Source: Emticicia sp. BO119
GTDB taxonomy: Bacteria; Bacteroidota; Bacteroidia; Cytophagales; Spirosomataceae
Length of the DNA: 64,000 nt
Assembly (NCBI RefSeq): GCF_013912375.1
Contig: NZ_JACETV010000002.1
Coordinates: 496,001-560,000, forward strand
Direction: 5' to 3'
The translations under genes and the position numbers were made by a program. Under the pieces are notes generated by a model. It did not search any database, was not told the origin of the DNA, and was given only the letters and a program-made list of their open reading frames with translations. Shown piece after piece: positions 5,244 through 41,467 of the stretch (position 1 is its first letter; the number at the start of each line of letters is the position of its first letter).

Positions 5244-5295
5244 ATTTTATCAGGGTATTAATTTTTATAAAAGAGGGTAATTAAGAGGCGATGTT

Positions 5296-5610
5296 TTACT
5301 GGAGTTCTAATACATTCCGGAGAGCTCTGTTCTTACGCCGAGATATAATGAAGGTTTCACCGTTGTCCAGAATGACTTTATTACTCCAATAATTATAAGC
5401 CTTAATGAACTCTTTATTGACAATGATCTTCCGGTTGATCCTGATAAAATTACCCGACTCTATTTTATCATTTAATCTTTTGATGGTAGTGGTAGAAATG
5501 ATACTTTCCTCCTGACAGGTATAAATGGTAGTATAGTTAATATCAGCTTGCAGGTATCTGATATTGTCAATTAAGACTTGTACTTTTTTAGTAATGTATA
5601 AGAATTCCAT
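5296..5610 (-). CDS. Stand-alone LytTR DNA-binding protein
   Basis: 104 residues, almost nothing but a LytTR domain: an early INYTTIY strand, FIRINRKIIVNKEFI in the middle and FIISRRKNRALRN at the end. LytTR domains normally sit behind a receiver domain in AlgR/AgrA-type regulators; here there is no receiver. It ends 52 bases before the start of the secreted 681-residue protein on the same strand, so it may be cotranscribed with it and control it. It is the most divergent of three such proteins in the window (others at 14660 and 23155). Confidence 0.85.
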   Translation of the reverse strand: MEFLYITKKVQVLIDNIRYLQADINYTTIYTCQEESIISTTTIKRLNDKIESGNFIRINRKIIVNKEFIKAYNYWSNKVILDNGETFIISRRKNRALRNVLELQ

Positions 5611-29528: not shown

Positions 29529-29830
29529 TTAAAACTTACTACCAACCGTAATTTTATCATTCTCTTCGGGAAGAAACCCAGTAACCTTAATTAATTTTGA
29601 ATAATTATTTATACTTGGCATCACTTTTTTATTTTCCCAAAGGAATACAGTTGTTTCAGAAACACCTAATAATTTGCTAAAGTCCCTTTAGAAAGATTGC
29701 TTATTGCGCAGTTTAGCTCCAAAAGTCAGTGGATTTGGATTATACGCTCTGTTTATAGGTTTAGGCACCCTAGCAGCTAAATCTGGGAAATGTCCACATA
29801 ATCTTTTGCCTAAGGCAATGCAAATTACTT
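29529..29830 (-). pseudogene. Decayed copy of an orphan XRE-type HTH gene
   Basis: On the minus strand this reads ALGKRLCGHFPDLAARVPKP, then NPNPLTFGAKLRNK. The frame is then lost where 11 bases present in the intact copy at 40374 (between gaaagatt and gcttatt) are missing. Recognisable HTH sequence continues in another frame (ANYLVFLKQLYSFGK region) and ends with a different tail (KLIKVTGFLPEEND). By eye the DNA is about 80-85% identical to 40374-40650. The first stop of this tail frame is at 29529. It lies just upstream of the sulfur cassette, in the same orientation as the other copy. Confidence 0.8.
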
Positions 29831-29909
29831 AAATAATCGACTTTTTGATAAGATGCTCTAGCAATGTTAATGAAGTATTTTACAAAAAAGAATATTTTTT
29901 TAAAAAACT

Positions 29910-29940
29910 TTTGAAAAGTGAATTATTATAGTTTACTTTG
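29910..29940 (+). promoter_or_regulatory. Candidate promoter of the sulfur cassette
   Basis: TTTG at 29910-29913, 20 bases, then TACTTTG at 29934-29940. This is the TTTG-N19-21-TAnnTTTG pattern with one base missing in the -7 box. Transcription would begin near 29947, giving a ~360-base leader before the first large gene. Confidence 0.5.
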
Positions 29941-30037
29941 TCTATCAAATTAGTAGAGTAATAAAGTAAATATATATTCTTTCCTTCTTGCTAACCACCA
30001 GTAAGACAAGGGAACCCAATCAAATTATTCACCAAAA

Positions 30038-30151
30038 ATGATGAAAGAAATTTGTTTGTTTGATTCGCCGGAATACTTTCTGACGAATTCGGTGGTGCCT
30101 TGTATGCTTCCCAATGCACAACGTATGTGCCTCACCGATAGTTGTTGTTAG
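30038..30151 (+). CDS. Putative cysteine-rich leader peptide ending Cys-Cys-stop
   Basis: A 37-codon ORF starting ATG ATG AAA GAA (30038) and ending ...MCLTDSCC-stop. Five of 37 codons are Cys (residues 6, 22, 31, 36, 37), with two TGT codons right before TAG. It lies inside the long leader of an operon for a thiol dioxygenase and a rhodanese, and a large foldable segment follows 37 bases later. By analogy, short polycysteine ORFs in mycobacteria act as cysteine-responsive attenuators of sulfur genes, so ribosome stalling at the Cys codons could report cysteine shortage. That link is inference; the ORF could be chance, but its position and ending argue against it. Confidence 0.55.
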   Translation: MMKEICLFDSPEYFLTNSVVPCMLPNAQRMCLTDSCC

Positions 30152-30187
30152 CAACGCAATACATTTGAAAAATACTATATTATCCTT

Positions 30188-30275
30188 GGTACCCTCGTGA
30201 CAGCCCAGGTACGACTTCCGTTTGGTCGGTGGTTGGCTATTCGGTTTGTTTTACTAGGCTGTCCTTAGGGGTATC
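30188..30275 (+). promoter_or_regulatory. Structured 5' leader of the sulfur cassette
   Basis: Long-range pairing: 30188-30194 with 30269-30275 (7 bp, one G-U) and 30199-30205 (gacagcc) with 30257-30263 (ggctgtc), enclosing ~50 bases with smaller stems. Also, 29991-29999 (ctaaccacc) can pair with 30228-30236 (ggtggttgg). The ggtggt at 30091-30096 inside the small ORF could compete for the same partner. I do not recognise a known riboswitch class. The lack of a T run argues against a simple terminator and for translational or mixed control. Confidence 0.45.
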
Positions 30276-30307
30276 AGGGATTCTTTTGCCAAATCCAAAG
30301 AAAAATC

Positions 30308-31219
30308 ATGAAAGTTTCAATTAAAATCGCATTCGTAGCGCTTTTTTGCTTCACAGGTCTGCATAGTGTCGGGCAACAGAATATCAGGATAAGCGGTACA
30401 CGCTTTACGTTTCCATTGGTAGAAAGATGGATTGTTGAATATAACAAATCAGGCTCAAATCTCTCTGCTGATTTGATTCCAAAGGCACAGCCTAACGAAA
30501 AATTAACTGTAAGAGTAGTTGGTCATGTTTTAGAAAAAACAGAATTAAAGCCATCAGAAGAAGTAATAGTTGTCAGTCGTTTTGCGCTTTTGCCTGTGAG
30601 CAATGAAAAAAATAGCCTTGCTCAGAAATCGCTGAAAAAGGGCTTAAAACCTGAAGAATTAAAAAAAGTATTCTTTGAAGACCCTGAAGAGTCGCTGGAA
30701 GAAAATACAAATAATGGCAAATATCAGGTCTATACACGCAATGCAAGAGTATGCTCTTCTATCGCCTTTGCCAGGTATTTCAATGATGAGCCTGAGAATA
30801 TTTTCGGGAAAGGAATCACCGGCGACGACTATCATTTGATTGAAGCCGTTAAACGGGATTCGTTAGGTATTACCTACAATAATCTGGGGTATATATATGA
30901 TTTAGAAAGCCGTACATTACAAAAGGGATTAGCAGTTTTACCCATAGATTTTAACAAAAATGGTAAGCTCGAAAAAGAAGAGCAAATTTATCAGAACCTC
31001 GATTTACTCATCAGCTTTTTAGAGAAAGGCAATAAAAAACAATACCTGCCGACCGAGAATATATTCTTCGTGATTGATAAAAGTCAGGCCAGTGACGAAC
31101 TCAATAAATTTATCCGCTGGGTTCAGACCGATGGACAGTCGTTTGCTCATGAATACGGTTTTCTTTCATTGACAACCAATGATAACAAAAGTGCCTTTAA
31201 TACAAATCTTAACAAGTAA
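30308..31219 (+). CDS. Periplasmic PstS-like substrate-binding protein
   Basis: 303 residues with a signal peptide (FVALFCFTGLHSVGQQ) and no lipobox Cys. It has the PBP-like pattern of PstS-type proteins: IRISGTRFTFPLVERWIVEYNKS at the start, then PSEEVIVVSRFALLPVSNEKN, and a late LNKFIRWVQTDGQSFAHEYGFLSL. PstS binds phosphate oxyanion; related proteins bind sulfate, molybdate or tungstate. No ABC permease or ATPase genes are present. Here it is the first gene before a SusC/SusD pair and thiol-oxidation genes, so an oxyanion or sulfonate ligand is plausible but unproven. It probably works with the TonB-dependent transporter rather than an ABC importer. Confidence 0.75.
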   Translation: MKVSIKIAFVALFCFTGLHSVGQQNIRISGTRFTFPLVERWIVEYNKSGSNLSADLIPKAQPNEKLTVRVVGHVLEKTELKPSEEVIVVSRFALLPVSNEKNSLAQKSLKKGLKPEELKKVFFEDPEESLEENTNNGKYQVYTRNARVCSSIAFARYFNDEPENIFGKGITGDDYHLIEAVKRDSLGITYNNLGYIYDLESRTLQKGLAVLPIDFNKNGKLEKEEQIYQNLDLLISFLEKGNKKQYLPTENIFFVIDKSQASDELNKFIRWVQTDGQSFAHEYGFLSLTTNDNKSAFNTNLNK

Positions 31220-31369: not shown

Positions 31370-34300
31370 ATGAAACAAAAAATTTACCATTACTCGAAAC
31401 TGCTTTTATTAGTAGCGGTATTCATTTCAGCGTATTCTCAGAATGGACATGCGCAGAATAGCGATTCCCGGCAACCTGTTTCCATTACAGGTAAGGTAAC
31501 AGACACAAAAAGTAAAGAAGGAATTGTGGGAGCTACTGTAGCCATCAAAGGAACGACTACAGGTGTTCTGACAGATGTAAACGGTAATTTTGACTTTAAA
31601 ACTTCACAAAAACCACCTTTTACCGTAGTAGTTTCTTATCTGGGCTACAGGAGACAGGAAGTTGAGGTTTTTGAAATAGAACCCTTAACCTTTGCGCTAT
31701 CAGAAATTAAAGGGCTTAAACTGGATGAAGTCGTTGTAATTGGTTATAGCACACAGGAAAGAAAGAATCTTGTTGGTTCGGTTACAAAAATTGACCCGGG
31801 TGATGTGAAAAATATCCCGGTTGCCAGTGTAGATGCGCAGTTGCAAGGCAAAGCAGCGGGGGTGCAGATTAATGCTAATACAGGGATACCCGGCGAGGCT
31901 ATTTCTGTAAGAGTAAGAGGGACCACCTCTATTAATGGTAGCAATGCACCTTTATATATTGTAGATGGCGTATTTATTAATGCTACAAGCTTGCAAACCA
32001 TTAATATGGGAGGCACTTCTACAAGCCCGTTAGCGGATATAAACCCATCAGATATTGAGAGCATTGAAGTTTTGAAGGATGCCAATGCAACAGCCATTTA
32101 TGGTTCGAGAGGGGCCAATGGTGTAGTAATTATTACAACCAAAAGAGGTGAATATAATACAAAGGCTAAGATAAACCTTAATGTAACCCAAGGGTTTAGT
32201 GAAATACAGAAAAGCAGATTGTGGAAATTGGTTACCGGCCCTGAATCAGCTGCATTTGTAAACGAAGCCTGGATTAATGCAGGAATTGATAACCCTGCTC
32301 TGAAACAGACTTTCGCCAATAGACCCTATCGCCCGAAATCAGAGGGAGGCCGGGGGTTACCGGAAGAACAAGGGACTTTTGACAGACTAAGCGATGTATT
32401 CAGAGTTGCTTCCCTTAAAGAGTATGACCTTTCCTTGCAGGGTGGTACAAAAACTACTAAGTATTATATAGGTGGCAATTATACAAAACAAGAGGCTACA
32501 GTTCGCCCGGTATACTTTGAGCGGTCAAGTTTTAAGCTGAATTTAGACCAGCAGGTAAATGATCAAATAACTATTGGTACAAGCAACAGCATTTCCCGTT
32601 CTTACCGGAATCAGCTTATTAGTGGAAGCACCCCAAGAGGGATTTTCCAATCTGCCTTGCTGACAGCTACCAACCTGCCTAAATATAATGATGATGGTAC
32701 CCCTGCCTTATGGGGAGGATTTGATAACGTAGATGTACTGGTAAATAATAACTTTATTAATACGGTAAGCCTGCGCTATATCGGAAATCTTTATGCTGAC
32801 ATAGATTTATTACCTAACCTGAAATTCAGAACCAGTTGGAGTGTTGATTATAACAATTATGATGAAAATGAATACTGGACTGATGAAACCGTTGTTGGGG
32901 CAGCCCCAACCAATGGCCGGGCACGTTCCTCGCTTACCCAGAACAGTGCATGGGTAAATGAACAGACCCTTTCATACCGGAAGAAATTTGACAAACATTC
33001 ATTCTCTGCCCTCGTAGGTAATACCCTGCAAAGTAATATTCTGAAAAATACTGCGGCCGAAGGGTCTAATTTTCCGAATAATTCATACCAGATTATTTCT
33101 TCTGCCTCTATTTTCAACGCCTCACAGTCATGGACAAAGGGCTCACTTGCCTCATTCTTTTCACGTGTTGATTATAATTATAACAGCAAATACTTATTTG
33201 AATTTACTTTCCGGGCTGATGGTTCTTCACGGTTTGGCGGAAATAATAAATGGGGCTATTTCCCATCGGTAGGGGGTGCATGGCGCGTAAAAGAAGAAGA
33301 CTTCCTGAAAAATGTGAGCTTCATCAGCGATCTGAAACTAAGAGCCAGTGTGGGTGTAACAGGCAACCAGAGTGGTATCGGTGATTTTGCTTCTTTAGGT
33401 CTTTGGAACGGTGGACCCGGGTATCCTGACAATGAAAGCAGCGGGGTTAGACCGGGCACTTCGCCGCAACAATTGGCTAATCCTGATTTGGTATGGGAAA
33501 AAACCAGACAGGCTAATATAGGCCTTGAAGCAGGATTTCTGGATAACCGTATCAATGTAGAATTAAATTTCTACGATAAATATACTACTGACGTATTATT
33601 GCAATTGCCTTTGCCGGGCACGAGTGGATTTACGTCTTATGCCAGCAATGTCGGAAAAATCAGTAATAAGGGTTTTGAATTGAGTATCAATACTTTCAAT
33701 ATTCAGCGAGACCGCTTCAAGTGGCAGACTAATCTGAATGTGGCCACCAATGTCAATAAAATAGTAGAACTTCCAAATCCTATTAATAGCGGATTCATAA
33801 CATTGGAACAAGGTTACCCCATGTTCTCTTTTCAGGTGTATAAACAATTGTATGTAGACGCACAAACCGGCAATGCTGTATATGAAGACGTAAATAAAGA
33901 TGGACAGATAACAGTAGCCGACCGCCAGATTTTAGGCACTTTTACGCCAAAATTCTTTGGTGGGCTTACAAATGCTCTTTCGTACAAAGACTTTGATTTA
34001 AATGTCTTATTCACTTTCCAGCAAGGCAATTATTTATTCAATGAAAACAGGAATTATGGCGAGAGTGGCGGTACCAGAGCAGATAGGTCCTATCACCTTA
34101 CTCAGGCTAACAGATGGCAAAAACCGGGAGATATTACCGATATTCCACGCATTACTACTGTGGGTACTAACTATAATTTAAGTCCGAATAGTCGATATCT
34201 GGAAGATGCTTCCTTTATCAGATTGAAAAACCTGTCGCTTGGCTATACAATACCTGTCCAAACTACAAGCAAGCTAAAAATCTCAAAGGCTCGCCTGTTT

Positions 34301-34456
34301 GTTAACGGGTCAAACTTATGGTTGCTCACTAAATATACCGGACCGGACCCGGAGGCATATGTACCTTCTTCGGGTAATCAGAACGCAGTAGGAAGAGACT
34401 TCTGTATTCCTCCGCAACCGCAAAGTGTGCAATTTGGTATTAATCTAACCTTTTAA
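31370..34456 (+). CDS. SusC/RagA-type TonB-dependent outer-membrane transporter
   Basis: 1028 residues. Signal peptide, then a carboxypeptidase-regulatory-like domain (about 40-110, SITGKVTDTKSKEGIVGATV), then a short TonB-box region (LDEVVVIGYSTQERKNLVGSV). The plug follows (QLQGKAAGVQINANTGIPG, VRVRGTTSINGSNAPLYIVDG, YGSRGANGVVIITTKRG), then a long beta-barrel ending in an aromatic residue (GINLTF). The family imports large or scarce nutrients across the outer membrane with a SusD lid. The SusD gene follows after 15 bases. The neighbours point to a sulfur-containing nutrient and not a glycan, since there are no glycoside hydrolases in the operon. Confidence 0.95.
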   Translation: MKQKIYHYSKLLLLVAVFISAYSQNGHAQNSDSRQPVSITGKVTDTKSKEGIVGATVAIKGTTTGVLTDVNGNFDFKTSQKPPFTVVVSYLGYRRQEVEVFEIEPLTFALSEIKGLKLDEVVVIGYSTQERKNLVGSVTKIDPGDVKNIPVASVDAQLQGKAAGVQINANTGIPGEAISVRVRGTTSINGSNAPLYIVDGVFINATSLQTINMGGTSTSPLADINPSDIESIEVLKDANATAIYGSRGANGVVIITTKRGEYNTKAKINLNVTQGFSEIQKSRLWKLVTGPESAAFVNEAWINAGIDNPALKQTFANRPYRPKSEGGRGLPEEQGTFDRLSDVFRVASLKEYDLSLQGGTKTTKYYIGGNYTKQEATVRPVYFERSSFKLNLDQQVNDQITIGTSNSISRSYRNQLISGSTPRGIFQSALLTATNLPKYNDDGTPALWGGFDNVDVLVNNNFINTVSLRYIGNLYADIDLLPNLKFRTSWSVDYNNYDENEYWTDETVVGAAPTNGRARSSLTQNSAWVNEQTLSYRKKFDKHSFSALVGNTLQSNILKNTAAEGSNFPNNSYQIISSASIFNASQSWTKGSLASFFSRVDYNYNSKYLFEFTFRADGSSRFGGNNKWGYFPSVGGAWRVKEEDFLKNVSFISDLKLRASVGVTGNQSGIGDFASLGLWNGGPGYPDNESSGVRPGTSPQQLANPDLVWEKTRQANIGLEAGFLDNRINVELNFYDKYTTDVLLQLPLPGTSGFTSYASNVGKISNKGFELSINTFNIQRDRFKWQTNLNVATNVNKIVELPNPINSGFITLEQGYPMFSFQVYKQLYVDAQTGNAVYEDVNKDGQITVADRQILGTFTPKFFGGLTNALSYKDFDLNVLFTFQQGNYLFNENRNYGESGGTRADRSYHLTQANRWQKPGDITDIPRITTVGTNYNLSPNSRYLEDASFIRLKNLSLGYTIPVQTTSKLKISKARLFVNGSNLWLLTKYTGPDPEAYVPSSGNQNAVGRDFCIPPQPQSVQFGINLTF

Positions 34457-34471
34457 TTTCTCAGGACACAC

Positions 34472-35812
34472 ATGAAATTCTATCAATATATATATTCTCT
34501 ATTGCTGATTACTGGTCTGGCATCATGCAATAAATTCCTTGATGTTTCGCCTAAAAATTCGGTTTCAGACGCTACCACAATTGTGGATAAATCATCGGCA
34601 GAAACAGCTGTCAGAGGGATGTACAATAGTCTGGCGAGTGGTTCTTATTATGGCACTTCTTTTCAGTCTATTGGCTATTTATCTGGCGATAATATCGCCA
34701 GAACAGGTCCAAGTACCGACCCGTCGCAGTTTATTGATCATAATGTCACAGCTGATAATGGGACGATAAACAGTGTCTGGAATGCCATTTACAATACCAT
34801 TAACAGAGCAAACCATGTCATAGCAAAAGTCCCGGCAGTTGATGATATAAGACTGACTCAGGAATTAAAAAATCAGCTTTTAGGAGAGGCCTATTTTGTA
34901 AGAGCCTTAGCTTATTTTGATTTGGCAAGAACATGGGGAGGAGTACAAATTGTATTGGAGCCTACCCAAAGTGTACAGGATAAAATAGGGGTTAAAAGAA
35001 GTACACTTGCGCAGACCTATGCACAGGTATTAAAAGACTTAGAAACTGCTGAACCTTTATTGCCCCCAACACTTAACCGGGTAAGAGCCACAAAAAATAC
35101 AGTCTGGGCCTTACGGGCAAGATACCATTTATATCAGAAGGAGTGGGCACAGGCAGAGAGCTACGCAGATAAAATTATCAATATGACCAACAATTATAAA
35201 CTCATTAGCCCCTATAATTCTTTCTGGGCAAATAATGTGGTAGCTACACAAGAGTCAATCTTCGAACTTTCTTATAGTGCAGCAACGCCCAATTCTCATA
35301 GAGGTAGCTGGCAACCACCTGAAAAAGGAGGCACAAGAGTCTGGATTCCGAATAATGCTTTTATTACACTCGTAAGCGACTCAACGATTGGAGGAAGCAG
35401 GAATACATTAATAGCCAGAACGACAGGAGGGTTATGGTATGGCAATATGTATTATCGCAGCCCCGCTACCGACCCCACCTTTATTCTTCGTATAGCCGAA
35501 CTTATCTTAATTAGAGCAGAGGCGCGCATACAGCAAGATAAAATTGAAGAGGCATTAAGCGATTTGAATATAGTAAGAAAAAGAGCAGGTCTTACTAATA
35601 AAACAGGCTTATCAAAAGACGAAACGCTTTTAGCCATTGAAAATGAAAGAAGAGTAGAGTTTGCCTATGAACCACATCGTTGGTTTGATTTGATCCGAAC
35701 CGGACGTGCCACCACAGTTTTGAGTATTACCAATCCAAACAAATTATTAATGCCGATTCCGATAAGTCAGATCAATGCCGATAAAGCGACTGAACAGAAT
35801 CCGGGATATTAA
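34472..35812 (+). CDS. SusD/RagB-type nutrient-binding lipoprotein
   Basis: 446 residues. The lipoprotein signal with LASC at residues 16-19 is followed by NKFLDVSPKNSV, the typical SusD start. TPR-like helices follow, with AYFVRALAYFDLARTWGGV (the hallmark ...R.LAYFDLVR.WG of the family), and the C-terminal RVEFAYEPHRWFDLIRTG. It is surface-anchored and caps the SusC barrel to bind substrate. It is shorter than many glycan SusDs (about 500-600), which fits a small ligand. Confidence 0.94.
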   Translation: MKFYQYIYSLLLITGLASCNKFLDVSPKNSVSDATTIVDKSSAETAVRGMYNSLASGSYYGTSFQSIGYLSGDNIARTGPSTDPSQFIDHNVTADNGTINSVWNAIYNTINRANHVIAKVPAVDDIRLTQELKNQLLGEAYFVRALAYFDLARTWGGVQIVLEPTQSVQDKIGVKRSTLAQTYAQVLKDLETAEPLLPPTLNRVRATKNTVWALRARYHLYQKEWAQAESYADKIINMTNNYKLISPYNSFWANNVVATQESIFELSYSAATPNSHRGSWQPPEKGGTRVWIPNNAFITLVSDSTIGGSRNTLIARTTGGLWYGNMYYRSPATDPTFILRIAELILIRAEARIQQDKIEEALSDLNIVRKRAGLTNKTGLSKDETLLAIENERRVEFAYEPHRWFDLIRTGRATTVLSITNPNKLLMPIPISQINADKATEQNPGY

Positions 35813-35854: not shown

Positions 35855-36751
35855 ATGAAAAATAGCAGAAAAACATTATTGGCTCTTGCCTTTATAACCC
35901 TTGTTTCATTTAGTTTTACTACTAAATTAGTAGACGATTACGACAAGGAAATTACAGAATGGCAACAGAATAGAATTAATGAATTGAGAGGGGCCAGAAG
36001 TCCACTGAATCTTGTCGGCTATTATGGCTTGAAAGAAGGAGCGAATACTTTCGGAAGCGGTAAAAACAATGACATCATATTTCCTGACGGCAAAATTCCT
36101 GCGTATGCAGGCACTTTCTTTCTGAAAGATGGTGTGGTTACTTTAGAAGTGGAAAAAGACGTACCTATTCTTTCAAAAGGCAAGAAATTTGAAAACTCGG
36201 TTGTTTATACTTCTTCGGCTTATACTGTTTTAGAATATGGAAGCCTGCAATGGTTTGTTCATAAAAATAGCAATGAATTAAACATCAGATTATTAGATTT
36301 GAAAAGCAAAAGCCAGTTGGCATTTACAGGTGTGGATAGGTTTCCGGTTAATAAGGACTTGCGTTTAAAAGCAAAGTTTCAACCTTATGCTCCAGCCTCC
36401 ACTATTGCTATTACTACTATTTATGGCAAAACGTCTGACAGACCTTCAGCAGGATTGCTTACATTTACTATTGATGCAAAAGAATATAAATTCGAAGCAT
36501 TAGGCACTGGCGCAGGTCAGAAATTATTCATTGTATTTTCAGATAAAACGGGTGATAAAGAGAGCTATCGGTTCAGATTTTTAAATACCGATGCACCAGA
36601 CGAAAACGGATTTGTGACTCTTGACTTTAATAAAGCTACTAATCCGAATTGTGCTTTTTCTCCGATTGCTCCTTGTCCGTTACCGCCGAAACAGAATGTT
36701 TTACCTATAGCGATTGAAGCCGGAGAGAAAAAGTATAAAAGTGAGATTTAA
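35855..36751 (+). CDS. DUF1684 protein
   Basis: 298 residues with an N-terminal hydrophobic segment (LLALAFITLVSFSFTT), so it is exported or membrane-tethered. It shows the DUF1684 pattern: a start rich in charged helix (EITEWQQNRINELR), the SPLNLVGYYGLKEGANTFG entry, the beta-rich middle and the closing block TDAPDENGFVTLDFNKATNPNCAFSPIAPCPLPP. Function is unknown; the two conserved Cys lie in that closing block. It sits between SusD and the thiol dioxygenase, and its cell location suggests work on the imported compound in the periplasm. Confidence 0.85.
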   Translation: MKNSRKTLLALAFITLVSFSFTTKLVDDYDKEITEWQQNRINELRGARSPLNLVGYYGLKEGANTFGSGKNNDIIFPDGKIPAYAGTFFLKDGVVTLEVEKDVPILSKGKKFENSVVYTSSAYTVLEYGSLQWFVHKNSNELNIRLLDLKSKSQLAFTGVDRFPVNKDLRLKAKFQPYAPASTIAITTIYGKTSDRPSAGLLTFTIDAKEYKFEALGTGAGQKLFIVFSDKTGDKESYRFRFLNTDAPDENGFVTLDFNKATNPNCAFSPIAPCPLPPKQNVLPIAIEAGEKKYKSEI

Positions 36752-36817: not shown

Positions 36818-37390
36818 ATGTCTCAAACACTAAATTCTGCTAAGTTGGGAAATTTTATTACTTCATTTACTGAATTGATAGACTCAAATCCGTCAGAAGT
36901 AAATGTGCTGACGAATGGTGTTGGCATCCTTCAGGACTTAGTGGCTGCTGATGACTGGCTTCCGGAAGAATATGCCCGACCCCATCCACAATATTACCAG
37001 CAGTTCTTATTGCATCTGGATCCACAGGAACGATTTTCCGTAGTCAGTTTTGTCTGGGGACCGGGTCAGATTACACCGATACATAACCATACGGTGTGGG
37101 GGCTAATTGGTATGCTTCGGGGCGCAGAATATTCTCAATCTTATGCCCTTACTCCTCAGGGAACTTTGCAAGCAGATGGAGAACCAATTAAACTGGAACC
37201 GGGTAAAGTGGAGGCAGTTTCACCTTATATCGGCGATATTCATCAGGTCAGAAACGCTTTTGATGATAAAGTATCTGTCAGTATTCATGTATATGGGGCA
37301 AATATTGGCAAAGTGAGCCGTTCGGTCTTATATGAAGACGGAACAAAAAAGGATTTTGTTTCGGGATATTCTACTATTACAAATAAGTAA
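36818..37390 (+). CDS. Thiol dioxygenase (cysteine / 3-mercaptopropionate dioxygenase family)
   Basis: 190-residue cupin. The iron ligands are visible as H89, H91 (PIHNH) and H142 (GDIHQV), and the Ser-His-Tyr motif typical of thiol dioxygenases as S155, H157, Y159 (SIHVYG). The stretch YYQQFLLHLDPQERFSVVSFVWGPGQ is the bacterial type; its QQF, with a Gln where mammalian CDO has the substrate-binding Arg, suggests 3-mercaptopropionate-type specificity. The reaction adds O2 to a thiol to give a sulfinate. It is cytoplasmic, lies 8 bases before the rhodanese gene and is surely cotranscribed with it. The symbol is left empty because the substrate is uncertain. Confidence 0.88.
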   Translation: MSQTLNSAKLGNFITSFTELIDSNPSEVNVLTNGVGILQDLVAADDWLPEEYARPHPQYYQQFLLHLDPQERFSVVSFVWGPGQITPIHNHTVWGLIGMLRGAEYSQSYALTPQGTLQADGEPIKLEPGKVEAVSPYIGDIHQVRNAFDDKVSVSIHVYGANIGKVSRSVLYEDGTKKDFVSGYSTITNK

Positions 37391-37398
37391 AAGATTTC

Positions 37399-39045
37399 AT
37401 GCTTATAATCAGTCAAAAACGTACTGAGCATAAGAAAAATATCAACTATTTTTCTTATGCTCAGATAAAAACTTTATTGTTGGAGAAAAAGGAAATTGCC
37501 TTACTGGATGTAAGAGAAGAGGCCATTTTTGCAGAAGCGCATCCTTTGTTTGCCGCTAATCTGCCTTATTCCCGCATCGAAATAGAAGCCTATTCCCGCA
37601 TTCCACGGTTGAACACTACCATAGTGATTTATGATAATGGTGAGGGACTGGCTGAAAAAGCCCTTAGCATATTTATAAAAATCGGGTATTCAGAGGTACA
37701 CTTGTTAAAGGGTGGCTTAAAAGGCTGGGAACTTGCAGGAGGCGAAATTTTCAGAGATGTCAATAGCCCAAGTAAAGCTTTTGGCGAATTAGTCGAATCA
37801 AAACGTCATACTCCCTCCCTTTCTGCAAAAGAAGTAAAGACTCTGATAGATAATCAGGATGATATTCTTATAGTCGATGCACGCAGATTTGATGAATATC
37901 AGACCATGAATATTCCAACAAGCCAGAGTGTTCCCGGTGCTGAATTGGTCTTGCGTGTAAGGGAATTGGTGCAAAGACCAGAGACAAAAATCATTGTTAA
38001 TTGCGCTGGCAGAACAAGGAGCATCATTGGTACACAATCATTAATTAATGTTAACATCCCTAATCAGGTTTTTGCACTTAGAAATGGTACCATTGGGTGG
38101 ACACTTGATGGACAGGCTTTAGAGCATGGCCAGAATCGGAAATATACAGAAGTAGGTACTGATATTAAGCAAAAGGCTATTACAGATAGTAGAAAAGTAG
38201 CCAGTAGAGCAGGAGTAAAACGGACCAACCTTTTGGCTGTCAAACAGTGGTTAAAAGAAAGAAACCGAACTAGCTATTGCTTTGATGTGCGGACTAATGA
38301 AGAGTATGAAGCAGGCCATTTGCCTGATTTCTGGTTTGTTCCCGGCGGACAGTTAGTGCAGGAAACAGACCATTATGCACCAGTAAGGGGAGCCAGAATT
38401 GTATTAGCCGATAATTTGGAAGTAAGAGCGAATATGACAGCTTCCTGGCTGGCACAAATGGGTTGGGAGGTATACGTAATTGATTACCTGACTGATGAAC
38501 TTCTGACAGATACGACAACACTACCAGTTAAACTGCCAATACCGGATTCACTGCCGGAGATTGAGGCATCTACTATCACACCGGAGACTTTGGTCGATTG
38601 GCTGAATAAACAGACTAATACAATAGTTATTGATTTTTCATTGGCTAATCAATACATAAAAGGACATATTCCGGGGGCATGGTATGCCCTGCGTTCACAA
38701 CTCAATGAGGCATTTGAACAATTTCCTGAGGCCACTCGTTATGTGCTCACTTCTACTGACCAGACTTTGGCCAATTATGTATTTGCTGGGTTTAAAGCAT
38801 TAACCGATAAAGATGTCTTTGTGCTTAGCGGTGGTAATCAAGGCTGGATAGAGAATGGATACCTCTTCGAAACCGGAGACTCGCCTGAGAAAAATCATTT
38901 TGCTTCTCCATTAATTGACCGTTACAGAAGACCTTATGAAGGCACTGATAATCCCGTAAAAGCCATGCAGGATTATCTGGAATGGGAATATGGTCTTGTA
39001 GACCAACTGGAACTAGACGGTACCCATGGTTTTTATGTTATTTAA
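37399..39045 (+). CDS. Four-domain rhodanese-like protein
   Basis: 548 residues made of four rhodanese domains: about 15-120, 135-255, 275-375 and 390-510. Only domain 2 has an active-site Cys (C202 in IIVNCAGRTRS, the CxxGxR loop). In domain 1 the Cys position is Asp (IYDNGEG), in domain 3 ADNLEVR, in domain 4 TSTDQTL. Each keeps its end motif (LLKGGLKGW, ALRNGTIGW, VLSGGNQGW). Rhodaneses move sulfane sulfur; the inactive domains probably bind substrate or partners. Multi-domain rhodaneses beside thiol dioxygenases are known from other bacteria, so they likely work in one pathway of organic-thiol breakdown. Cytoplasmic. Confidence 0.88.
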   Translation: MLIISQKRTEHKKNINYFSYAQIKTLLLEKKEIALLDVREEAIFAEAHPLFAANLPYSRIEIEAYSRIPRLNTTIVIYDNGEGLAEKALSIFIKIGYSEVHLLKGGLKGWELAGGEIFRDVNSPSKAFGELVESKRHTPSLSAKEVKTLIDNQDDILIVDARRFDEYQTMNIPTSQSVPGAELVLRVRELVQRPETKIIVNCAGRTRSIIGTQSLINVNIPNQVFALRNGTIGWTLDGQALEHGQNRKYTEVGTDIKQKAITDSRKVASRAGVKRTNLLAVKQWLKERNRTSYCFDVRTNEEYEAGHLPDFWFVPGGQLVQETDHYAPVRGARIVLADNLEVRANMTASWLAQMGWEVYVIDYLTDELLTDTTTLPVKLPIPDSLPEIEASTITPETLVDWLNKQTNTIVIDFSLANQYIKGHIPGAWYALRSQLNEAFEQFPEATRYVLTSTDQTLANYVFAGFKALTDKDVFVLSGGNQGWIENGYLFETGDSPEKNHFASPLIDRYRRPYEGTDNPVKAMQDYLEWEYGLVDQLELDGTHGFYVI

Positions 39046-39063: not shown

Positions 39064-40329
39064 ATGAACGATAAAACTACACTTACCTATCAAGCGAATG
39101 CCACACTGAATCAGTCAGAGCGACCTAATAAGATTATCATCCTTCTGATTATTGTTTCAGCCTTAGGGTACTTTGTTGATGTGTATGATATGATGTTGTT
39201 TACGGTTGTCAGAAAGAAGAGCCTTTTAGAATTAGGCATAGCAGAAAATGAAACCCTGAGTGTAGGATTACGGTTGTTGAACTTTCAGACAATCGGTCTA
39301 TTGGCAGGAGGTATTTTCTGGGGTATTTTAGGAGATAAAAAAGGTCGGTTAAATGTGCTTTTTGGGTCTATCATTATTTATTCTCTGGCCAATATCCTCA
39401 ATGGATTTGTTTCTGAATTGTGGCAGTATGGGGTGTTGAGAGTGATAGCAGGATTCGGTTTAGCCGGCGAATTAGGTGCAGGTGTAACCATAGTAATGGA
39501 ATCACTAAAAAAAGAAACCAGAACTATCGGTGCTACATTAGTGGCAAGTTTTGGGTTAATTGGGGCTATAGTAGCAGGCTATGTAGGTGAGCATTTTGAT
39601 TGGAGAGTGGCCTTTATTGTAGGTGGGGTTTTGGGGCTTTTCCTTTTGCTGTTAAGAATCGGTGTTCATGAATCGGATATGTATAAAAACATTAAAAATA
39701 AGGATATAGAAAAAGGCAAGTTTCTGAAAATATTTGCCTCATGGGATAAATTCAGCCGCTATGCTAAAACTATTCTTGTAGGCTTACCCTCATATTTTGT
39801 ATTAGGTCTTTTACTAACTATAGCTCCTGAATTTGCTAAGGAAATTGGTATTGCAGATAAAATCAATACAGGGCATGCCATGATGTATTGCTTTGCAGGT
39901 TTTAGTGTTGCCGATTTATTATGTGGCTTATTGAGCCAGAAACTGAAAAGCCGGAAAGCTGTTTTTTATCTATTCAATATGCTTACCATTATTTCAATTA
40001 TAACCTTTTTTTATGCTCCAGCCAATAGTCTTTTCGGGTTTTATATCAGATACACTTTTGTAGGGTTTGGCATTGGTTATTGGGCCATGTTGGTTACTAA
40101 TGCCTCTGAGCAATTTGGTACGAATTATCGGGCAACCGTTACCACGACTGTCCCTAATTTTATACGGGGTGCCTTAGTACCTATCGCTTTTGCCTTTGAA
40201 AGCCTGAAACCTCCATTAGGGTTAATCAATAGTGGCGTCATCATAGGTTTAATTACAGTTATAATAGCCTTAGGAGCTACTTTTTATACAAGAGAAACTT
40301 TCCATAAAGAACTAGACTATAATGAATAA
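39064..40329 (+). CDS. MFS transporter
   Basis: 421 residues with about 12 membrane segments. The first opens YFVDVYDMMLFTVV, as in metabolite:H+ symporters. The loop 2-3 motif is GDKKGRLNV and loop 4-5 has GFGLAGELGAGVTIVMESL, which resembles the sugar-phosphate/aromatic-acid:H+ symporter branches. It is the last gene of the sulfur cassette, followed by a strong terminator. It could take the compound across the inner membrane after SusCD brings it into the periplasm, or export a sulfinate or sulfite product; direction is unknown. Confidence 0.88.
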   Translation: MNDKTTLTYQANATLNQSERPNKIIILLIIVSALGYFVDVYDMMLFTVVRKKSLLELGIAENETLSVGLRLLNFQTIGLLAGGIFWGILGDKKGRLNVLFGSIIIYSLANILNGFVSELWQYGVLRVIAGFGLAGELGAGVTIVMESLKKETRTIGATLVASFGLIGAIVAGYVGEHFDWRVAFIVGGVLGLFLLLLRIGVHESDMYKNIKNKDIEKGKFLKIFASWDKFSRYAKTILVGLPSYFVLGLLLTIAPEFAKEIGIADKINTGHAMMYCFAGFSVADLLCGLLSQKLKSRKAVFYLFNMLTIISIITFFYAPANSLFGFYIRYTFVGFGIGYWAMLVTNASEQFGTNYRATVTTTVPNFIRGALVPIAFAFESLKPPLGLINSGVIIGLITVIIALGATFYTRETFHKELDYNE

Positions 40330-40373: not shown

Positions 40374-40613
40374 TCAAATATCTGTTCTTTTTTCAATTAC
40401 CAAAAGACATTCAACAAACTCTATTAGTTTTGTTAAATTACTTGCCCTTGGCATCACTTTATTACTTTCCCAAAGAAATACAGTTGTTTCTGAAACATCT
40501 ACTAATTTGCTCAAATCCTTTGTAGAAAGATTTAATTCCAATCGCTTATTGCGCAATTTAGCTCCAAAAGTCAATGGATTTGGATTATATGTTCTGTTTA
40601 TAGGTTTAGGCAC
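40374..40613 (-). CDS. Orphan XRE-type HTH protein
   Basis: 79 residues from a GTG at 40613. The core FGAKLRNKRLELNLSTKDLSKLVDVSETTVFLWESNKV.P is a Cro/CI-type HTH. The frame is open further, to 40649 (RLRGHFPDLVARVPKPINR), and homologues of this kind usually contain that stretch, so the 5' end may be lost. That upstream part overlaps the 3' end of the DUF1080 gene. A decayed second copy lies at 29529. Both have the same orientation and lie on either side of the sulfur cassette. Whether this one is expressed is unclear. Confidence 0.6.
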   Translation of the reverse strand: MPKPINRTYNPNPLTFGAKLRNKRLELNLSTKDLSKLVDVSETTVFLWESNKVMPRASNLTKLIEFVECLLVIEKRTDI

Positions 40614-40621
40614 CCTTGCGA

Positions 40622-41467
40622 CTAAATCCGGAAAATGTCCACGTAATCTTTAAGATTCAATAATTCTATTTTACTGAACTCTATCGGGTGGCTCTCGGCT
40701 TGTAGTGCTATATAGCCTTCACCTAAAGGAGTGCTGTCTTTTTTTAACCATTCCTGAGCTGCTTCATCGTCTATATGAGCCTCTTTAAAACCGTAATCCT
40801 TGCTTACAAAACCACCACCGATCTGCGGCTTTTCAAAGGCAAACACTACCTGGTTATCGATTAAATGTTGTATGACTGAATCACCTAAAACAAGCGCTTC
40901 TACCGTTACCCATTGATCACCATCGTAGGTTTTTGACCATGAGTCAATACAATGTTGGGTATTGAGTCTTCCGTTCATATAAACCTGTGTGCCAGGTGTG
41001 CAAAGATTGGCTGTGTGCCGTTCGCCTTTACCTAAACCACCTAATAACTGGAGCTCTAATGAAACCGGAAAATCCTGCCCTTTTGACAGACTGGCCGCTG
41101 ATTGCGAATGAAGCATCACGCCGCTGTTTCTGACATTCCAGGAAGCACCACCTTTGGTTTGATTGCCTACAAATCGATAGGTAAACCGAAGCTTATAGTA
41201 AGAAAAAGGTTGATTGTAATAAAGATGTCCGAATTTTCCGTCAAACTCATCGTATTCATCATAGGCTATTTGCAGAATACCGTCTTTGACACGGAAAGTA
41301 TTTTTGTAGTTATCATTTAGTTCCTGACCTGCTATTTTAATATCCCAGTTTTTTAGGTCTTTGCCATTAAAAAGCTGTTGCCATTCTTCTTTTTTTGGGT
41401 TGTTTTTTTGCGCTTGTGCCACAAAACAAATGACCATAAAGATAAGAGCCAATAGTGGATGCTTCAT
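40622..41467 (-). CDS. DUF1080 (3-keto-disaccharide hydrolase-like) secreted protein
   Basis: I start at 41467 (MKHPLLALIFMVICFVAQAQ), a clean signal peptide; the frame to 41527 adds a polar stretch in front. 281 residues with the DUF1080 concanavalin-like fold: WQQLFNGKDLKNWDIKIAG near the start, FRVKDGILQIAYDEYD, SGVMLHSQSA, and WVTVEALVLGDSVIQHLI, then IEFSKIELLNL. The family includes 3-keto-glycoside hydrolases, but many members are uncharacterised. The last residues (KDYVDIFRI) come from DNA shared with the HTH relic, so the natural stop was probably lost and the C-terminus is slightly extended. Confidence 0.85.
   Translation of the reverse strand: MKHPLLALIFMVICFVAQAQKNNPKKEEWQQLFNGKDLKNWDIKIAGQELNDNYKNTFRVKDGILQIAYDEYDEFDGKFGHLYYNQPFSYYKLRFTYRFVGNQTKGGASWNVRNSGVMLHSQSAASLSKGQDFPVSLELQLLGGLGKGERHTANLCTPGTQVYMNGRLNTQHCIDSWSKTYDGDQWVTVEALVLGDSVIQHLIDNQVVFAFEKPQIGGGFVSKDYGFKEAHIDDEAAQEWLKKDSTPLGEGYIALQAESHPIEFSKIELLNLKDYVDIFRI

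Follow-up and report, generated by a model that had tools for sequence, protein, structure and literature searches.

Results

A Cys-Cys ORF in the leader of a putative sulfur-scavenging cassette

The window is a 64,000 nt stretch of the Emticicia sp. BO119 genome. It contains a forward-strand cassette that opens with a gene for a 303 aa periplasmic-binding-protein-like product (30308-31219). The similarity is slight: the PBP_like_2 match (E 0.0018) is below the Pfam cut-off and a profile of the gene's own family finds PstS weakly (E 0.00098). Domain matches identify the genes that follow as encoding a SusC-type TonB-dependent receptor (31370-34456), a SusD-type lipoprotein (34472-35812), a DUF1684 protein (35855-36751), a cysteine-dioxygenase-like protein (36818-37390; CDO_I at 23.5 bits, with a cut-off of 23), a rhodanese with four matched stretches (37399-39045) and an MFS transporter (39064-40329).

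Diverged direct repeats flank the whole cassette (29571-29806 and 40404-40651). The copies agree at 90% over 111 nt and at 79% over 118 nt. The left copy has no full ORF equivalent to that of the right copy, which encodes an HTH_3 protein on the minus strand (40374-40613).

The leader, on the same strand as the cassette, begins with a promoter-like element (29910-29940) formed by TTTG (29910-29913) and TTACTTTG (29933-29940). This is followed by the palindrome TCTATCAAATTAGTAGA (29941-29957), a possible operator at which the transcript is presumed to start. A hairpin, P1, occupies positions 29980-30014 and has the 7 nt loop AACCACC (segment A, 29993-29999). The leader ORF (30038-30151, with an alternative start at 30041) has the 37 codons and five Cys codons given for it in the preliminary description. 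Its translation is MMKEICLFDSPEYFLTNSVVPCMLPNAQRMCLTDSCC-stop, and the last two Cys codons (30143-30148) directly precede the stop, so that it ends TGT TGT TAG (30143-30151). Within the ORF, a predicted hairpin, P2 (30063-30088), lies directly 5' of GGTGGT (segment B, 30091-30096). A long hairpin, H, with the apical loop GTGGT, fills most of the space before the first gene (30182-30281); the segment first described as foldable, 30188-30275, is thus real and slightly larger than proposed. The tip of H carries GGTGGTT (segment C, 30228-30234). The copies of GGTGGT at 30091-30096 and 30228-30234, and their shared partner at 29991-29999, were all found where they had been placed.

Database comparisons did not assign the leader to a catalogued family. 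There was no Rfam match in the whole window at gathering score, SAM-I (RF00162) included, and none in the leader (29850-30400) up to E 5, T-box included. The 37 aa peptide had no match in Pfam or NCBIfam. Between 29700 and 30500 there were no terminator-like sites, that is, no hairpin followed by a U-tract before the first gene.

The Cys-Cys ORF recurs upstream of related genes

Among 11 genomes of the genus compared, only that of BO119 has the first gene; hence the cassette may have been acquired in one piece. Relatives of the gene were present in 28 of 200 genomes of the family, BO119 included (L003-L030). This family also contains Dyadobacter and Pseudarcicella. All 28 upstream regions were read, and in 26 of them an ORF had Cys-Cys among its last 11 codons. 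One exception, L028, is a loss. The other, in a Dyadobacter genome (L023, from position 1378), is an in-frame fusion of the leader start to the binding-protein gene that has no Cys codons; it is a natural loss of the predicted switch.

We also scanned 65 loci across Bacteroidota, using genome names as deposited, some of them metagenome bins; 64 had enough upstream DNA. The criterion required, in the 500 bases upstream, an ATG-initiated ORF 12-90 codons long whose last ten residues include Cys-Cys. It was passed by 46 of the 64 loci and failed by 18. By comparison, the reverse strand gave 1 of 64 and dinucleotide shuffles predicted 1.9. Elsewhere in these loci, 46 of 1607 windows passed (~3%, as in shuffles). 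Leaving out Dyadobacter, 21 of 37 loci passed. When the other 19 residue doublets were counted in the same way, the best was Leu-Leu, with 17 of 64 forward and 18 reverse. Conservation of the Cys-Cys-stop ORF, on which the preliminary description had made its reading depend, is thus evident at both scales.

The leader ORF could be an accident, since short ORFs are common and ~3% of windows hold one that passes. Set against 46 passes in 64, this explanation has a negligible probability. About 2 of the 46 passing loci are still expected by chance, and L149, where the ORF is 5' of the palindrome, is likely to be one. Conversely, some leaders escape the criterion, such as those of Pseudarcicella (L004/L087) and L006/L088, where Cys-Cys is ten and eleven codons from the end.

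Constraint is on the Cys codons and not on the rest of the peptide

TGY-TGY pairs occurred 111 times in frame, and 2 and 4 times in the other frames. This bias is partly built in, as the ORFs were chosen for Cys-Cys; the codon mix, 118 TGT and 73 TGC, is not. A codon-position test for coding was negative. Across 43 Dyadobacter pairs there were 262, 294 and 279 substitutions at the three positions, with no third-position bias. Hence, the evidence for coding rests on the Cys codons, which stay in frame while the remaining peptide drifts. A leader that conveys nothing but its Cys codons should look like this.

The genes behind these leaders were examined with further patterns. One, combining the promoter-like element with CCACC, matched 19 places, spread over 18 of 200 genomes and two genera, and its reversed control matched none; the pattern does not match the window itself, where the spacing differs. 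A Cys leader was present at 15 of the 19 places. By Pfam, sulfatases (L078, L085) and a SusC receptor (L068) lie behind such leaders. At L075 a 39-codon ORF precedes a fatty-acid-hydroxylase-family gene, and at L076 a rhodanese-thioredoxin gene is ~0.9 kb downstream. Sulfatase-like genes were also seen at L071 and L082 (also L066), where promoter, palindrome and CCACC are kept and a Cys-run ORF was not detected.

Outside the family, L206 (810-3278) has a leader ending ...ARMRMCCWCPCCC (Met-Arg-Met-Cys-Cys-Trp-Cys-Pro-Cys-Cys-Cys). It stands before a Cys/Met-metabolism PLP enzyme and an alpha/beta hydrolase, which we take to be MetY and MetX. A search of 395 genomes for Met-Arg-Met-Cys-Cys matched 58, and was noisy, with the reversed pattern also matching in a number. 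We read 30 of these loci; three were leader-like (L179, L182, L183), two were doubtful (L168, L172), and eight further regions contained none that was convincing. A tighter pattern gave 11 matches in 10 of the 395 genomes. Clear leaders were present at L199-L202 and doubtful ones at L195 and L197; the remaining matches were not leaders when read. Cys leaders stand before a PhyH-family gene in four genomes. At L199-L202, L204 and L205, leaders with four to eight Cys codons near the end lie ~50 nt before this 268 aa PhyH-family gene. Genes of the CDP-alcohol phosphatidyltransferase and GtrA families follow, and the group is possibly lipid-related.

The recurrent Arg-Met-Cys-Cys, found in Bacteroidales leaders and before the PhyH-family and Cys/Met-metabolism genes, hints that the peptide itself is constrained in part of the family. 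A Cys cluster might, in that case, act as an arrest peptide, so that the nascent chain and not Cys-tRNA supply is sensed, with a metal, thiol redox state or another signal as its cue. We regard this as quite improbable. The residues before the Cys run vary widely in Spirosomaceae-type leaders, and gene contexts point to sulfur acquisition. By annotation only, the leader sits before genes tied to cysteine or sulfur: the cysteine-dioxygenase-like and rhodanese genes here and, elsewhere, sulfatases and the Cys_Met_Meta_PP enzyme. An ORF that ends in Cys codons and precedes sulfur genes points to ribosome stalling as a means of sensing the supply of Cys-tRNA.

A promoter-like element and palindrome mark the presumed 5' end of the leader

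The 'good promoter' of the preliminary description stood only in part. A sigma-70 scan was at chance level, with 3 matches against 2.1 expected. The TTTG...TTACTTTG element (29910-29940), though, is present, and TTTGTCTAT, which starts inside it, was found at all 28 loci with relatives of the first gene in the 200 family genomes. We take the element to resemble the Bacteroidota -33/-7 consensus. The adjoining palindrome is conserved, with variations, in both Spirosomaceae-type and Chryseolinea-type loci, and TTTGTCTA occurs no more than 320 nt upstream of 35 of the 46 Cys-Cys leaders.

In a pattern search of the BO119 genome, the motif CTTTGTCTA-N5..14-TAGTAG was found at two places only, this leader and a site before a cysteine-desulfurase-like gene. 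This distribution is as expected of a regulator's operator. The second site (L216, 1504-1529) is just 5' of the desulfurase-like gene (Aminotran_5), on the opposite strand. A palindrome of the TCTAT...TAGA type was also observed close before the binding-protein gene at L094, L095, L143, L147 and L149 (Sporocytophaga and others); the first four of these have no Cys leader by our criterion.

A transcription factor at 29941-29957 might accordingly be the main control, leaving the ORF and hairpins only to tune mRNA stability or translation. Recurrence of the palindrome before the desulfurase-like gene would fit, as would the Sporocytophaga loci without a Cys leader, where a similar palindrome is right before the gene. 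We nonetheless think it unlikely, as a transcription factor would leave the in-frame Cys codons and the covariation of P1 (below) unexplained. The two layers may coexist.

The leader contains a covarying 5' hairpin and a stable pre-gene hairpin

The preliminary description had pointed to covariation of the stems as a check on its reading, and we found it for P1. Across 41 distinct sequences, 88.9% of cells were paired and the score was 0.731, against 0.252 for shuffles and at most 0.203 when the structure was slid; this alignment was fitted to the structure and so leans that way. Compensatory pairs were also present in an unfitted alignment of 25 sequences, where 8 had them at columns 31-51 and 11 at columns 32-50. 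In the part corresponding to P2, several Dyadobacter leaders fold into a different hairpin.

The 161 nt segment containing H (30150-30310) has a minimum free energy of -50.8 kcal/mol (z -3.87), and none of 200 shuffles was as good. For H itself the z-score was -4.2 in the window and between -4.8 and -9.5 in eight other Spirosomaceae-type loci. The stems of this type diverge widely and the tip, CGGTGGTTG, is unchanged. Eight folded loci of the Chryseolinea type gave z-scores of -1.7 to -5.3. Between ORF and gene, 25 Dyadobacter loci yielded no consensus structure; the alignment was poor and some ends were cut short.

Covariance model R1 was run on 390 genomes of the order and matched in 30 at E 0.01 or better, 15 of them within the family. 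The 15 matches outside it (E 2.4e-4 or weaker) were counted as false, there being no Cys-run leader at any of these loci. The BO119 genome has no second convincing copy by this model, its next match being at E 0.03.

Segments A, B and C could pair in alternative ways

The A:C and A:B duplexes, at -14.9 and -11.1 kcal/mol, are predicted to be the two best sites in the leader. The best of 3000 random 13-mers from the window reached -12.7 kcal/mol. Hence, A:C is above background, and A:B alone does not go beyond the background extreme.

Segments A and C differ between lineages. A is AACCACC and C is GGTGGTT in the group to which the window belongs (L003-L006) and in several other Spirosomaceae-type leaders. 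Nine loci of the Chryseolinea/Ohtaekwangia/Xanthocytophaga type (one of them a bin labelled Chitinophaga) have TTGGTGG as C and, in most cases, CCACCA(A/G) as the loop. With nine loci in each lineage, a leader's own A and C formed a mean of 7.56 bp in both. Swapping partners between lineages gave 5.7 and 5.4 bp, where the invariant core of 5 is the floor. These means leave out two of the 20 rows: L076, at 7 bp, and L081, at 5 bp and with no Cys leader detected. L069, which has no second GGTGG, was dropped. Thus, the pairing partner changed along with the loop, at the edges, a contrast that represents one lineage split and not many independent events.

Segments A and B (the latter as GGTGG in the ORF) were present in all 25 Dyadobacter leaders that pass the Cys criterion, from 27 Dyadobacter loci in all; random windows held the two motifs at 8.8% and 11.5%. 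Segment B is 31-46 nt (mode 37) before the Cys run in Dyadobacter and 52 nt before it in the window. Segment C, as a second GGTGG before the first gene, was found at none of 24 Dyadobacter loci of this gene, and no segment B was seen in the Chryseolinea type. A three-way A/B/C switch is therefore not universal. Both pairings are possible, and each is conserved in parts of the leader family. The proposed competition between the three segments is backed by the A-C edge changes across two lineages together with the occurrence of both A and B in every one of the 25 Dyadobacter leaders that pass.

Conservation is also seen at the RNA level: P1 is kept, as are the three segments and some stretches of the ORF (CGATGA, TTCTTCG), H is very stable, and the peptide outside its Cys residues is not conserved. 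The RNA alone might therefore be the sensor, with P1, H and the loop contacts forming a ligand- or protein-binding element and the ORF a by-product. We give this little credence. The Cys run stays in frame using both Cys codons, and Cys-run ORFs persist where neither AACCACC/ACCACCA nor GGTGGT/TGGTGG was found in the leader, as in Bacteroidales.

Discussion

A model for cysteine-responsive control

The comparison supports the cysteine-attenuation interpretation of the preliminary description. What it shows is the ORF with in-frame Cys codons near its stop, hairpin P1, conservation of the segments, joint changes at the edges of A and C, and a setting among sulfur genes. We therefore favour, with good confidence, a reading in which the leader would be a cysteine-responsive leader-peptide switch for a sulfur-scavenging operon. 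It is likewise probable that such a switch would gauge the supply of Cys-tRNA through ribosomes stalling at the Cys codons.

The steps can be envisaged as follows. The short ORF would be translated and, when charged Cys-tRNA is scarce, the ribosome would stall on the Cys codons at its end. Given the size of the ribosome footprint, segment B would then be behind the halted ribosome and free to pair with the P1 loop. Held by B, segment A would be kept from the tip of H and the operon would be expressed. With enough cysteine the ribosome would finish, A and C would form a long-range contact between loops that encloses the entire ORF, and expression would fall. We infer this ON/OFF direction tentatively; that A-C is the OFF state seems to us rather less than an even bet. 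As there is no U-tract terminator, the output of a classical attenuator is missing. Hence, control may be exerted through Rho, translation or RNA decay.

Relation to known leaders

In PMC1262725, Cys leader peptides are predicted before cys operons of mycobacteria, and no conserved terminator hairpins are reported. PMC9094748 and PMC13236596 cite Canestrari et al. (2020) as experimental work on mycobacterial polycysteine ORFs. The present leader is similar in that its sulfur genes are preceded by a short ORF whose Cys run is close to the stop, and in its lack of an evident intrinsic terminator. It differs in several respects. The mycobacterial polycysteine ORFs are leaderless, according to the title cited. 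Conversely, ~90 nt separate the ORF of the window from the presumed transcript start, and covarying hairpins and loop partners surround this ORF. That it is not leaderless is judged from the DNA sequence only, by the covarying hairpin and promoter element upstream. The window leader also belongs to another phylum and precedes scavenging genes. An origin independent of the mycobacterial leaders is plausible because the gene context and RNA surroundings differ.

Our search of the literature, made among open-licence PMC papers, found no report of cysteine leader peptides in Bacteroidota. Leader-peptide-like ORFs of Flavobacterium and Bacteroides are mentioned in PMC9723704 and PMC7366714, with no cysteine case in the parts consulted. 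Together with the mycobacterial precedent, this makes the leader one of a known kind that is new in its present form.

The trp, his and phe transcription attenuators rely on competing RNA pairings and on a short ORF that ends in the regulatory codons. Codons for one amino acid are similarly clustered near the ORF end in our leader, and competing pairings are possible. Unlike those attenuators, it has no U-tract terminator that we could find, and its competing pairings are loop-based and long-range.

SAM-I riboswitches in related leaders

Six relatives have a SAM-I riboswitch (RF00162), absent from the window, in their leaders between P1 and the Cys ORF. Scans found it at four of eight loci (L113, L121, L140, L144) and then at two of eight (L116, L142). 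At L141 a SAM-I riboswitch is present and there is no Cys leader. The nine other loci scanned, four labelled Bacteroidales, contained none. A riboswitch 5' of the Cys ORF also argues against a leaderless ORF. Leaders of the mgtA/mgtCBR type combine an RNA sensor with short ORFs. The SAM-I-containing leaders resemble these in having more than one input per leader; the signals, the RNA and the phylum are different.

We consider it close to an even chance, though slightly below, that these leaders represent a widespread Bacteroidota RNA architecture. A ribosome on Cys codons would be wired into a kissing contact between the 5' hairpin loop and the pre-gene hairpin and, in one clade, SAM-I would sit inside the same loop. 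The result would be a sulfur gauge with two inputs, cysteine and SAM, and no need of an intrinsic terminator.

The presence of similar tiny Cys ORFs in many Bacteroidota suggests that ribosomes reading cysteine codons may act as a sulfur gauge. If so, a major phylum of polysaccharide and sulfate-ester degraders would gain a direct cysteine sensor at the RNA level. This would explain how clusters of sulfatase and SusCD genes could answer to sulfur need, and not to sugar alone. Annotation is likely to miss such leaders, since they are short and diverse in sequence; their signature, a Cys run at the end of an upstream ORF, allows the members of the regulon to be counted. With leader peptide, loop-loop pairing and SAM-I riboswitch combined, the system would be a tractable model for two-input control. 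At one of the six loci, L113, a second SAM-I riboswitch (5274-5376) lies ~2.3 kb upstream of that in the Cys leader.
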